Assembly (NCBI RefSeq): GCF_001280515.1
Contig: NZ_LBIQ01000030.1
Coordinates: forward strand, 310,001 to 374,000
Direction of reading: 5' to 3'
DNA from: Mangrovimonas sp. ST2L15
GTDB lineage: Bacteria; Bacteroidota; Bacteroidia; Flavobacteriales; Flavobacteriaceae
DNA: 64,000 nucleotides
The position numbers were made by a program, and so were the translations under genes. The notes under the pieces are model-generated. The model had not been told where the DNA came from, did no database searches, and saw only the letters and a program-made list of their open reading frames with translations. Of this stretch, positions 43,836 to 47,711 are shown piece after piece (within the stretch, counting starts at the first letter, position 1; every line of letters starts with the position of its first letter).

Positions 43836-44780
43836 TTGTTAAATCCATTCAATTATAAAATTATACGTTTGACTTTAAAAAATAAAAAACACAGTTGGTT
43901 GCTAATTTCTGGAATAGGCATGTTCTGTTTAGGAATAGTAACCTCTTTTTTTGTAGACTTAAATTTAGCAGAAAACTATAAAACTTTTGAAAGTTACACT
44001 AGGGTTGGATTCCCTCTTTTTCTCGTTTTCGCAATTTTTATAGCTCCTATTTTTGAAGAATTGAGTTTTAGAGGAGGCTTTGTTCAATCCAAAATTATAA
44101 GAGCTATCTCCCTTATTGGTTTGATTATCTTTTTCTTTCTGACCCAAAGTTATTTAACCAAAGTAATTACCATTATCTATTTAGTTTTATTGATTGTTTC
44201 TTTTTTTAAGAAAGAGGTCTCTTTACTAGTCCCTTTAGCCCTACTCAACGCTTTTCTATTTGCATTATTCCATCTGGACACCGATCATTTGATAAGCTGG
44301 AATGCATTAGCTGGATTTAGCTTTAGAAGTGCTTTTGCATTTTTTGCCATTTGGATTTGTATCAATTTTAATCTATTAAAATCCATACTTTCCCATTCCG
44401 TGTGGAATTTAAGCCTAGTGTTAGTTTTTTCCTATTCCCTATTTTTCCCAGATGAAACCATTCAACATTATGAAAACGAAAACATACATGTCACTTGGAG
44501 CAGGACTTCAAAAAAGTTTCATGGAAAAGTGAACTTTCCAACTATGAACCACATAAAGGCAACAAGTTGTGAAGCTTCATTTTTATTAAAATCTGTGCTA
44601 TGGAGCGATATGACTGCAAGCCAAACAGATCAGTTCATACCTACCGAACTTTTTATGGATTATCATTTCGAAATTAAGTTAAAAGATTCTACAGCTAAAC
44701 AACCTAACTTATACCAACCCATCAAACAATTTTTACTTGATGAAGAATTATTGATGATTACAAAACCTGAAGAGAATTAA
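43836..44780 (+). CDS. CPBP-family intramembrane metalloprotease
   Basis: 314 residues with about eight hydrophobic helices. The CPBP motifs are seen: FEELSFRGGFV (EExxxR), LFALFHLD and SHSVWNLSL. Family roles include CAAX-like processing and bacteriocin maturation or immunity. Start is uncertain: TTG at 43836 is used because no ATG lies before the first helix. It ends overlapping the convergent D-amino-acid-oxidase gene by four bases. Confidence 0.8.
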   Translation: MLNPFNYKIIRLTLKNKKHSWLLISGIGMFCLGIVTSFFVDLNLAENYKTFESYTRVGFPLFLVFAIFIAPIFEELSFRGGFVQSKIIRAISLIGLIIFFFLTQSYLTKVITIIYLVLLIVSFFKKEVSLLVPLALLNAFLFALFHLDTDHLISWNALAGFSFRSAFAFFAIWICINFNLLKSILSHSVWNLSLVLVFSYSLFFPDETIQHYENENIHVTWSRTSKKFHGKVNFPTMNHIKATSCEASFLLKSVLWSDMTASQTDQFIPTELFMDYHFEIKLKDSTAKQPNLYQPIKQFLLDEELLMITKPEEN

Positions 44781-45721
44781 AGTTGCTTTTTAAAACGCTC
44801 TGCCAATTCCATGGCACACCCCCAAGCTACCGTAAAACCGGCACCACCATGACCGTAATTATGAAAAATGTTGGAGTATTCGGCATCATATTCAAACCGC
44901 ACTTCGCTCCTTAAAGGTCTCAAACCCACTAAAATTTCTAAAACTTCCGGTTGTTTCTCACTTAAGCCCGAGGTTTTCAATCGGTCCAAAATTTTTTGAG
45001 TATCGACATCATCTACTTGTTCATTATAATCATTAATATAGTCCGTCCCACCCACAATGCTATCTGTACTTCTATTGAAGATATAAGTCAGCTTGCCAGG
45101 TTCTGTTGAGTTGACACAAGATGCTCCTGTTAGCTTTTCACACCTCAGGATCTGTCCGCGCATGGGTTTTAAGTGAATATCCCGACACAAATCCTTAGCC
45201 CCCATTCCCGTGCAATTAACAACCCTGCACCCTAATGAGGCCATTTCTTGAAGCGATTTTACTTCCTTCAGGATAAATTGTCCATCAGCATCCAAAAATT
45301 TCTGAAATAAATAAGGCAAATATAAAGGCGGTTCTGCTAAAGGTACTTGAGCCAAAAAAGCATTTTCAACACCCTTTGGTAGTTCATGGTCATGGGCTTT
45401 TCTAACTTGGTCATCTGGTAAATGAGAAGTCCAAGACGTATCACTTTCAGAATTATAAACTACCATGAACGGTATGATAGACACGCCATTTTTCAGACTT
45501 ACTTCTTCTAAGTATTTCTGATAGGAATACGCAGCCCATTTATTTGCCTTTTCAATGGGATGCACTTCAAAAGGAAACCAAATAGCACCCACTTTATGGG
45601 ATAAGGTCTTTTGAAACGGTTCTTTTGAAACGATTTCGACTTGAAATCCCTTTTCCTGTAGTTGCAGAGCTGTTGTAAGCCCAACAATGCCGCTACCAAC
45701 CACCACAACTTTCTTTTGCAT
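44777..45721 (-). CDS. FAD-dependent D-amino-acid-oxidase-like enzyme
   Basis: 314 residues. FAD-binding Rossmann motif VVVGSGIVGLTTALQLQEKG at the N-terminus and the ending NIFHNYGHGGAGFTVAWGCA as in eukaryote-type D-amino-acid oxidases, with VRFEYD nearby. It would oxidise D-amino acids to keto acids, ammonia and hydrogen peroxide. Alone on its strand; promoter box TATCTTTG lies 23 bases upstream. Confidence 0.85.
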   Translation of the reverse strand: MQKKVVVVGSGIVGLTTALQLQEKGFQVEIVSKEPFQKTLSHKVGAIWFPFEVHPIEKANKWAAYSYQKYLEEVSLKNGVSIIPFMVVYNSESDTSWTSHLPDDQVRKAHDHELPKGVENAFLAQVPLAEPPLYLPYLFQKFLDADGQFILKEVKSLQEMASLGCRVVNCTGMGAKDLCRDIHLKPMRGQILRCEKLTGASCVNSTEPGKLTYIFNRSTDSIVGGTDYINDYNEQVDDVDTQKILDRLKTSGLSEKQPEVLEILVGLRPLRSEVRFEYDAEYSNIFHNYGHGGAGFTVAWGCAMELAERFKKQL

Positions 45722-45799: not shown

Positions 45800-45836
45800 A
45801 AACAAAAAGCACTTTATAGAAACTATAAAGTGCTTT
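45800..45836 (-). terminator. Strong terminator of the small-peptide transcript
   Basis: 14-bp perfect stem AAAGCACTTTATAG / CTATAAAGTGCTTT with loop AAA. On the minus strand it continues into GTGCTTTTTGTTTTT, a U tract. It follows the peptide stop codon by 63 bases; a nine-base pair TAACTCGTT / AACGAGTTA brackets the spacer. Confidence 0.85.
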
Positions 45837-45899
45837 AAGTAGACTAACTCGTTATTATTAATTCAATTTTTTTCTCAAAAAACAAAATCAAAAAACGAG

Positions 45900-45986
45900 T
45901 TAACCACCATCGGCTTTACAGTTGCTGTTTATAAAAACAGGAACTGAAACACCCCATGCGTTAATAAATTTCTTAAAAAATTTCAT
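45900..45986 (-). CDS. 28-residue peptide gene under ECF-like promoter
   Basis: ATG at 45986 to TAA at 45900. The peptide begins MKFFKKFINAW, continues through the hydrophobic GVSVPVF and ends SNCKADGG: a basic amphipathic head, one Trp, one Cys, and a Gly-Gly end. There is no cleavable signal-peptide length, and no homolog I recognise. It has its own promoter-like sequence (46076-46105), an 80- to 90-base leader with a GCTGCA-GAG-TGCAGC hairpin, and a strong terminator, so the roughly 270-base transcript looks like a dedicated gene. It could be a peptide signal, a small membrane protein, or a regulatory RNA in which the frame is by chance; the first reading is favoured because the frame fits the middle of the transcript. 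Confidence 0.6.
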   Translation of the reverse strand: MKFFKKFINAWGVSVPVFINSNCKADGG

Positions 45987-46041: not shown

Positions 46042-46075
46042 TCTTTTCATAGCAAAAGTTCCCCACTTTATTCTA

Positions 46076-46105
46076 TAGATGCAAAAAGAATAAAAAGGTT
46101 GCGTC
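46076..46105 (-). promoter_or_regulatory. ECF-sigma-type promoter, copy A, reading left towards the peptide gene
   Basis: Minus strand: GACGCAACCTTTTTATTC, five T-rich bases, GCATCTA. CAACC fits an ECF -35 element (AAC core) and CATCTA a -10 element, with a 15-base spacer. 28 of 30 bases match copy B at 47219. It starts only 66 bases before the recA start codon, in the opposite direction. Confidence 0.6.
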
Positions 46106-46170
46106 ATAAAATTGTAAACTGATAAAAGTTGTAGTATTTTAGCATTTATCACAATGAAAAAAAACAGAGT

Positions 46171-47178
46171 ATGAGCAGCGAGAAAGAAGCCAAATTAAAA
46201 GCATTAAAATTAACCTTAGATAAATTAGATAAAGCTTACGGAAAAGGAACTGTCATGAAGATGAGTGACCAAGCGGTTGCTGATATTGAGGCTATCTCAT
46301 CTGGTTCTTTAGGCTTGGATTTAGCACTGGGTGTTGGAGGATATCCACGTGGCCGAGTGATTGAAATTTACGGACCAGAATCCTCTGGTAAAACCACCTT
46401 AACATTACATGCTATTGCCGAGGCTCAAAAAAAAGGAGGCATCGCCGCTTTTATTGATGCAGAACATGCTTTTGATCGATTTTATGCCGAAAAGTTAGGA
46501 GTTGATTTAGAGAATTTAATCATCTCCCAACCAGATCATGGAGAACAAGCATTAGAAATAGCAGACAACTTAGTGCGCTCAGGGGCCATTGACATTATTA
46601 TTGTGGATTCGGTTGCTGCATTAACACCCAAAAGTGAAATTGAGGGAGAAATGGGAGACTCCAAAATGGGGTTACACGCCCGATTAATGTCTCAAGCTTT
46701 GAGAAAGTTAACGGCTTCCATCAGCAAAACCAATTGTACCATGATTTTCATCAACCAATTACGTGAAAAAATAGGGGTCATGTTTGGAAACCCTGAGACC
46801 ACCACAGGTGGAAATGCTTTGAAATTCTATGCTTCCGTAAGGTTAGACATTAGACGTTCTACCCAAATAAAAGATAATAACGGGGATGTTTCTGGTAACA
46901 AAACTCGTGTTAAAGTGGTTAAGAACAAAGTCGCACCACCGTTTAAAACGGCTGAATTTGACATCATGTATGGAGAAGGAATTTCTAAAGTGGGAGAAGT
47001 TCTAGACCTAGCTGTTGATTTTGGCATTGTTAAAAAGAGTGGGTCATGGTTTAGTTATGAAGATAGCAAACTAGGGCAAGGAAGAGATGCTGTTAAAGCC
47101 TTATTGAAAGATAACCCAGATTTGATGGATGAACTTGAACAGAAAATCAAGGAAGCTATCAAAGAAAATCAACAATAA
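46171..47178 (+). CDS. recA: Recombinase RecA
   Basis: 335 residues. RecA filaments pair homologous DNA and drive recombination repair. Visible: Walker [15 protein letters not shown], the loop-1 and loop-2 regions [19 protein letters not shown] and [13 protein letters not shown], and the usual ending with acidic residues. The ATG at 46171 is preferred over any upstream start because an ATG at 46154 is followed in frame by a stop. Its promoter is not clear: a weak TTG-N17-TAGTATTT occurs at 46112-46139, beside the divergent ECF-like copy A. A terminator follows the stop. Confidence 0.98.
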
Positions 47179-47184
47179 AAAAAC

Positions 47185-47212
47185 AAATCCCGAAAAATTC
47201 GGGATTTTTTTA
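47185..47212 (+). terminator. recA terminator
   Basis: Ten-bp stem AAATCCCGAA / TTCGGGATTT, loop AAA, then a T run, seven bases after the recA stop. Confidence 0.9.
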
Positions 47213-47218
47213 TATCCA

Positions 47219-47248
47219 GACGCAACCTTTTTATTCATTCTGCATCTA
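47219..47248 (+). promoter_or_regulatory. ECF-sigma-type promoter, copy B, reading into the sigma operon
   Basis: GACGCAACCTTTTTATTC, then five bases, then GCATCTA, on the plus strand. It begins seven bases after the recA terminator and lies about 40 bases before the lipoprotein start. Together with copy A it defines an inverted pair flanking recA. Confidence 0.6.
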
Positions 47249-47285: not shown

Positions 47286-47711
47286 ATGATGAGGAGTTTT
47301 AAAATATTTGTAACCTTGGTTTTGACTGTAGTCATGTTTCAATCTTGTAGCCTCAGTGATGATGACACAATCAATGTTCAATATGAATTGTTACCCGTTG
47401 AGGAAGCCTTTTTGCCCACAGAAATGACCGTTAATGAAATTTATGAAATATCGGTCTCTTATATTCTGCCTACCGATTGTCATGCTTACAATGACATTTA
47501 TTATTCCAAGGTCGATTTTGAAAGAACGGTAGCCATTGTTTCAGCCTATTTTGCAAATAATGAGCCCTGTGAAACGCAAACTGCCATTTTTGAAACCAAC
47601 TTTAATTTTAAACCCCTAAATTCAGGGACCTATACTTTTAAGTTTTGGAAAGGAACAGATGATTCGGGAACAGATCTCTATGAAGAAGTTCTGGTAGAAG
47701 TTTCAGAGTGA
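47286..47711 (+). CDS. Small lipoprotein, first gene of sigma operon
   Basis: 141 residues. Signal peptide with lipobox FQSC near residue 21 (VTLVLTVVMFQSCSLSDDD). The mature part is mostly beta with two Cys that could bridge (PTDCHAYND and NEPCETQ) and GTYTFKFWKGTDDSGTD near the end. I do not recognise the family. Placed between a sigma-type promoter and the sigma factor gene, it is probably the first product of the autoregulated operon and may sit at the outer membrane. ATGATG at 47286 offers two starts three bases apart. Confidence 0.8.
   Translation: MMRSFKIFVTLVLTVVMFQSCSLSDDDTINVQYELLPVEEAFLPTEMTVNEIYEISVSYILPTDCHAYNDIYYSKVDFERTVAIVSAYFANNEPCETQTAIFETNFNFKPLNSGTYTFKFWKGTDDSGTDLYEEVLVEVSE

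Follow-up and report, generated by a model that had tools for sequence, protein, structure and literature searches.

Two near-identical promoter-like sequences, P1 and P2, flank recA in Mangrovimonas sp. ST2L15, and we consider it highly probable from sequence comparison that both serve as promoters for the ECF sigma factor whose gene lies just beyond P2. They are very probably twin switches that a cell-envelope stress regulator activates jointly: P2 leads into the operon of the sigma factor itself, and P1, facing the opposite way, leads into a short terminated transcript that carries a small peptide gene here and apparently a non-coding RNA in many relatives. The coordinates of all features are collected in Table 1; the window denotes the whole 64,000-nt stretch of DNA that was analysed.

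Table 1. Features of the recA region, in window coordinates.
Feature	Position	Strand	Remarks
Intrinsic-terminator-like hairpin ending the P1 transcript	45804..45837	-	Read from sequence
Stem-loop over the peptide end	45842..45905	-	5' arm (last Gly codon and stop) 45894-45905
Stem-loop 3' arm, AACGAGTTAGTC	45842-45853	-	Pairs with last Gly codon and stop
28-codon peptide gene, MKFFKKFINAWGVSVPVFINSNCKADGG-stop	45900..45986	-	72-member family, pN/pS 0.41-0.55
Conserved leader element TGGGGAACTTTTGCTATGAAAA, start of the P1 transcript	46044..46065	-	In peptide-bearing and peptide-less relatives
P1, ECF-type promoter pointing away from recA	46076..46105	-	Reads GACGCAACCTTTTTATTCTTTTTGCATCTA
P1 boxes	46097-46103; 46076-46082	-	-35 CGCAACC; -10 GCATCTA
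Presumed recA promoter	46112..46143	+	TTG 46112-46114, TATTTTAGC 46135-46143; back to back with P1
recA, flanked by P1 and P2	46171..47178	+	TIGR02012, E 5.8e-170
P2, ECF-type promoter of the sigma operon	47219..47248	+	Reads GACGCAACCTTTTTATTCATTCTGCATCTA
P2 boxes	47221-47227; 47242-47248	+	-35 CGCAACC; -10 GCATCTA
Operon lipoprotein, predicted beta-sandwich	47286..47711	+	AlphaFold pLDDT 90
ECF sigma factor, GTG start, 180 aa	47741..48283	+	Sigma70_r2 and Sigma70_r4_2
Dma-like anti-sigma, 544 residues	48283..49917	+	Predicted layout

Twin promoter-like sequences are rare in the genome and conserved around recA

Direct comparison confirmed what the first-pass annotation had described: the two 30-mers are identical at 28 of 30 bases, both point away from recA, and CAACC and CATCTA are separated by 15 bases. 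Beyond P1 and P2, no place in the window lies within 10 mismatches of the 30-mer. A search of the whole genome (3,556,543 bases), which had been suggested as a check, found the core GCAACC-N14..17-GCATCTA to be rare, with three occurrences, whereas its reverse, the control, does not occur. When a 28-base pattern was searched at two mismatches or fewer, there were 11 matches, compared with 7 in the control. The five matches with 0-1 mismatch are P1, P2, C24:1422914, C21:147756 and C29:236731. At least two sites other than the twins thus stand at lipoprotein genes, as C24:1422914 and C21:147756 are immediately upstream of lipoprotein-like genes, the latter of which resembles by eye the gene behind a same-type site in a relative (G018). 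Behind the promoter-type match at C29:236731 there is no ORF of at least 40 aa. A chance repeat is ruled out by this genome-wide rarity, by the controls, and by the family-restricted occurrence of the pattern documented below.

A first scan of 60 genomes (Mangrovimonas sp. ST2L15 included) found the pattern in 18, with the site pair flanking recA in five others (G001, G003, G009, G011 and G018); spacers had changed among these twins, and the reversed-pattern control was zero in every genome. We then compared recA regions in three sets, which share some species. Set a comprises 72 peptide-bearing regions, namely the window, 70 other matches at E≤2e-4 from a profile search with the P1-encoded peptide in 397 genomes of the family (82 genomes matched at E≤0.01), and G003, which lies outside that draw. 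Here recA is divergent from the peptide gene in 72/72 regions, and P1 and P2 could each be parsed in 70/72. The two missing P1 sites have altered -10 boxes (GCGTCTA in G163, ACAACTA in G286); the missing P2 sites are those of G386, which falls at a contig end, and of G373. The sigma gene is present in 69 of the 72 regions, two of the others being cut by contig ends (G104 and G386) and one, G286, being without it. With allowed spacings of 13-15 and 12-17 in the parsing, the gap between GCAACC and GCATCTA is 14 in 69/70 P1 and 70/70 P2 sites.

Set b consists of 60 sigma-bearing regions picked among the matches listed, from genomes without a peptide match at E≤2e-4 (G109 and G345 carry weak matches, E 0.005-0.009), and recA adjoins the sigma gene in 59 of them. 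The first-pass annotation had held that absence of the sites from relatives that keep the sigma operon would speak against a shared regulon. P2 is retained throughout (59/59); P1 is retained in 48/59 and occurs as a variant in two more (G337 and G143, with spacing one base shorter and ending CAGTCTA), and 9/59 regions have no recognisable P1, so that by this criterion the shared regulon stands for P2 without exception and for P1 in most regions.

Set c was selected from the GTDB collection by presence of the sigma gene: of 456 sigma relatives there, it keeps the best 80, all named genomes. Among these best 80 of 456, recA is adjacent and on the sigma gene's strand in 80/80, P1 is present in 76/80, P2 in 79/80 and both in 75/80; an ORF that spans 26-32 codons and closes with [DE]GG-stop, an ending preset in the search, occurs in 59/80. 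The alignment of recA regions across Flavobacteriaceae that had been recommended therefore finds both copies and their spacing conserved, and P2 precedes the sigma operon, as claimed, in the same 79 of these best 80 of 456 relatives. At one locus (L298, from G341), two tandem same-type sites follow recA at about 3640 and 3810; a terminator-like hairpin stands behind the first, suggestive of a different small RNA in that lineage.

P1 precedes a family of small peptide genes

Downstream of P1 lies the 28-codon ORF that the first-pass annotation had pointed out. Judged by its sequence evolution, it is coding, and defines a new family of peptides of 28-31 residues ending Gly-Gly-stop. With 55 non-redundant 30-codon members of set a sorted into three bins by divergence, pN/pS was 0.41, 0.47 and 0.55. 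Gly-Gly-stop is kept in 72/72 members of set a despite third-base variation in both Gly codons; the search profile covered Gly-Gly and not the stop, which is TAA in 47, TAG in 23 and TGA in 2. The window peptide has no match in Pfam, and three family members have none in NCBIfam. A profile search of 296 genomes of the order returned seven matches at E≤0.001, of which six are from Flavobacteriaceae (ST2L15 included) and one is a partial match elsewhere. More divergent members occur in G337, G143, G202, G121 and G067.

P1 and the ORF are separated by 45 to 281 nt in set a, and in short cases such as L007 the ATG of the transcript leader is the start of the ORF itself. Among L065-L135, the ATG of many peptide genes is set apart from the leader ATG by an insert of variable sequence, frequently an inverted repeat, and in L024 the insert pairs with leader ATGAAAAAG. 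Regarding the nature of the peptide, a secreted lipopeptide is dismissed at the level of the whole family because cysteine is not invariant (it is sixth from the end in only 67/72 members, and 2/72 have none), and a membrane or signal peptide is doubtful by eye because several members have no hydrophobic core.

The end of the peptide gene also has potential for RNA structure. Downstream of the gene, a TTAGNC sequence able to pair with the last Gly codon and stop is found in 72/72 regions of set a. For the nine pairs after the stop, covariation is weak, since the observed paired fraction of 0.630 (shuffle mean 0.598) only equals the best of 2000 shuffles.

Beyond the transcript, yceA (rhodanese-like) follows in 62 of the 72 peptide-bearing regions. 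The window has a FAD-dependent oxidoreductase (DAO) gene (44777-45721) in that place, an arrangement seen in 1/72 regions. The sequence at the start of yceA (TATAGCATGCAACTGTACAA) looks strikingly constant across L147-L206, genomes without P1 included.

In many relatives P1 apparently yields a short non-coding RNA

In 46 of the 60 set b regions, a P1 is present with GCT[AG]T no more than 45 nt downstream; 27 of these 46 have at most 150 nt up to a terminator. These RNAs have in common a leader (GGGAAA..TTTTGCTATGAAA), then GACTAACTC, then the terminator, and some have lost the leader ATG. The sharing of these segments among peptide-less RNAs, some of them without an ATG, indicates an RNA function beyond the peptide. 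From these sequences, P1 in many relatives apparently makes a short non-coding RNA instead of a peptide messenger.

Structural support for the P1 RNA is moderate. In 12 peptide-less relatives, five pairs of the corresponding terminator hairpin have changed on both sides; an RNAalifold consensus of 12 peptide-less RNAs recovered only this terminator. Single-sequence folds give a central hairpin in some peptide-less RNAs, and the mean z of the central part over 25 such RNAs is -0.95, with the ACTARC segment unpaired in an enclosed loop in 10/25. No known structured RNA family was recovered by Rfam search at gathering score: there were no such matches in 12 related loci, and the 17 weak matches at the window site all fall short of the gathering score. 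None of the titles and abstract openings listed by literature searches deals with the motif, the RNA or the peptide.

On balance, the most likely reading, to which we give roughly even credence, is that the P1 product is a fast response arm, a small RNA that may tune mRNAs of the envelope and that in some lineages is accompanied by the peptide as a second product. Somewhat short of even, we place the possibility that the P1 transcript is a peptide messenger only and that relatives without the peptide retain decaying remnants of it as their short RNAs. The coding constraint and the invariant Gly-Gly-stop fit such a messenger well, and peptide-like remnants can be made out by eye, for example in G345, G157 and G362; decay is harder to reconcile with the retention of P1 in 48/59 peptide-less regions and with the recurrence there of TTGCTAT and GACTAACTC even where the leader ATG is absent. 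A further, tentative reading, which we rate as rather unlikely, makes the P1 transcript a dual-function RNA of a Dma-type sigma factor that senses the outer membrane, combining a regulatory small RNA with a new family of peptides of about 30 residues, whose Gly-Gly C-terminus would be obligatory, in part of the Flavobacteriaceae. The conserved stem would be the switch between the two: a ribosome terminating at the last Gly codon and stop would open it and so change the role of the RNA.

The promoter pattern tracks the sigma gene

The protein encoded beyond P2 matches Sigma70_r2 and Sigma70_r4_2 above cut-off, and so has only regions 2 and 4, as an ECF-type sigma factor does; its own operon is preceded by the conserved two-box promoter P2. 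Across the 397 family genomes, of which 317 are sigma-positive (an ortholog match at E≤1e-40), the strict pattern occurs in 201/317 sigma-positive and 2/80 sigma-negative genomes (Fisher p 3.4e-26), and the reversed pattern in 0/397; 116 of the 317 sigma-positive genomes have no match to the strict pattern. This co-occurrence may carry lineage effects because the sigma-negative genomes are mostly small (18/20 among those listed are below 3 Mb). In a class-wide draw, the strict pattern was found in 3/247 genomes, all Flavobacteriaceae, and in 0/240 genomes outside that family.

An illustrative case of sigma loss, and a single event, is that of G286 (L080). Relative to a genome of the same genus (G065, L078), G286 has lost the lipoprotein-sigma-anti-sigma operon beside recA. 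The peptide gene is retained and P2 is intact as a stub, directly followed by the gene that lies beyond the operon in the window, presumably an acyltransferase-like gene. The P1 -10 box is altered, reading ACAACTA where G065 has ACATCTA, and the T concerned is kept in the remaining 71 of the 72 set a P1 sites. The proposal of the first-pass annotation, a two-arm regulon of this sigma factor enclosing recA, is accordingly well supported at the level of sequence by conservation, by spacing, by co-occurrence with the sigma gene and by the relative that has lost it.

It is improbable that another ECF sigma factor, or several with overlapping preference, reads these sites and that their proximity to the sigma operon is historical. 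Overlap of ECF regulons is possible and is raised for F. psychrophilum in the available part of PMC9723704, and similar sites precede lipoprotein genes elsewhere, including one in G152 with a different, 37%-identical sigma factor encoded downstream. However, 201/203 pattern-bearing family genomes also carry the ortholog of the sigma factor considered here, and P2 stands immediately ahead of the sigma operon in almost all relatives examined.

Spacers of the two copies are homogenised in a minority of genomes

The spacers between the boxes bear on the history of the two copies. Among 160 distinct twins, 10 have a 10-nt variable spacer core that does not differ between P1 and P2, compared with 0.2 expected from cross-genome pairs, and 17 have cores that are at least 9/10 identical, compared with 1.6 expected. 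Replacing a genome's own P2 by that of its nearest recA relative left no identical cores and five at 9/10 or better. After thinning at 90% recA identity, 15/148 twins reach 9/10, and in a permutation test on this thinned set 0 of 10,000 permutations reached 15 (maximum 7). Mean spacer likeness is 8.46 of 14 for a genome's own twin and 8.30 for the nearest relative, a small excess from which we conclude that homogenisation is confined to a minority of genomes. The identical spacers are most simply explained by conversion over short tracts between the inverted copies; since the likeness ends at the boxes, convergence under selection may also explain them.

That the twin is primarily an inverted repeat maintained for recombination around recA, with promoter likeness secondary, draws on these identical cores and is very unlikely, given that spacers differ in most genomes where the boxes stay, that likeness ends at the boxes, that additional single copies stand upstream of lipoprotein genes, and that recA keeps the sigma gene's strand in all of the best 80 of 456 relatives.

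recA lies between the arms of the proposed regulon

We regard recA as enclosed by the regulon and not as a member of it. A box resembling the flavobacterial promoter consensus TAnnTTTG (given in the available part of PMC9723704), on which our reading of the presumed recA promoter is based, was found in 117 of 160 genomes examined, and in 116 of these it lies 38-41 nt from the P1 -35. Conservation over CGCAACC and ATC in the alignment of this box was not counted as evidence because the search pattern had fixed these letters. Polymerase footprints at P1 and at the recA promoter would overlap, so that the two could compete.

A Dma-like anti-sigma factor suggests an outer-membrane trigger

The gene adjoining the sigma gene encodes a protein whose predicted structure has the Dma-type layout: N-terminal helices at residues 4-34 are followed by a membrane helix spanning 46-69, then by residues 70-284, modelled at low confidence (pLDDT below 50) and probably a disordered tether, and finally by a beta-barrel at 310-543. 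Among PDB structures it resembles OmpA barrels most closely (E 4e-9). From this modelled layout, the trigger of the sigma factor is probably the state of the outer membrane. The lipoprotein encoded first in the operon has no Pfam match and no PDB structural match at E≤0.001; a NigD-like identity was rejected (NF051862 scores 13.4 bits, cut-off 60, and covers residues 6-33, the signal region).

Dma anti-sigmas control vesicle shedding in Bacteroides. Das/Dma pairs (ECF21) are described for Bacteroides thetaiotaomicron in the available part of PMC13088901; Dma1 is the subject of a 2024 PNAS paper, as cited in the corresponding parts of PMC13088901 and PMC12596196. As far as the former goes, the present system shares with Das/Dma a sigma factor beside an anti-sigma with a cytosolic N-terminal part, membrane helix, disordered tether and C-terminal beta-barrel, and a small operon that includes a further envelope protein gene. 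Unlike those systems, it adjoins recA and has an opposite-facing RNA/peptide arm. The likeness lies in the predicted layout and in the position beside an ECF sigma gene. That part of PMC13088901 contains no promoter motif for Das1 or Das2.

Proposed mechanism and significance

We propose that the Dma-like anti-sigma would hold the sigma factor at the inner membrane while being embedded in the outer membrane by its C-terminal barrel, and that disturbance of the outer membrane would release the sigma factor. Free sigma would transcribe its own operon from P2, giving positive feedback together with fresh anti-sigma, and in the opposite direction would produce the short terminated RNA from P1, which would encode the 28-residue peptide in Mangrovimonas sp. 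ST2L15 and apparently be non-coding in many relatives. recA would merely lie between the arms, where its back-to-back promoter could compete with P1.

Sigma-E of E. coli is an outer-membrane-sensing ECF sigma factor with an autoregulated operon and small RNAs. By analogy, the system proposed here would combine the same three elements of outer-membrane sensing, autoregulation and a small RNA arm; unlike the small RNAs of Sigma-E, the P1 RNA can bear a conserved peptide gene. Within the same family, an ECF-type promoter class, SM6, has been mapped in Flavobacterium psychrophilum, and the SM6 list in the available part of PMC9723704 includes yceA, a likeness of gene name to the gene that most often follows the P1 transcript here.

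Beyond the two-arm regulon of the first-pass annotation, our analysis adds a gene family behind P1, an anti-sigma of Dma type and homogenised spacers. The repeated making identical of two promoters in one genome bears on how the members of a regulon stay matched to their sigma factor. For the Flavobacteriaceae, the findings provide a sharp promoter motif for a Dma-type sigma system, with likely regulon members named, and a small RNA/peptide gene family maintained beside recA that is without a match in Pfam, NCBIfam and Rfam.
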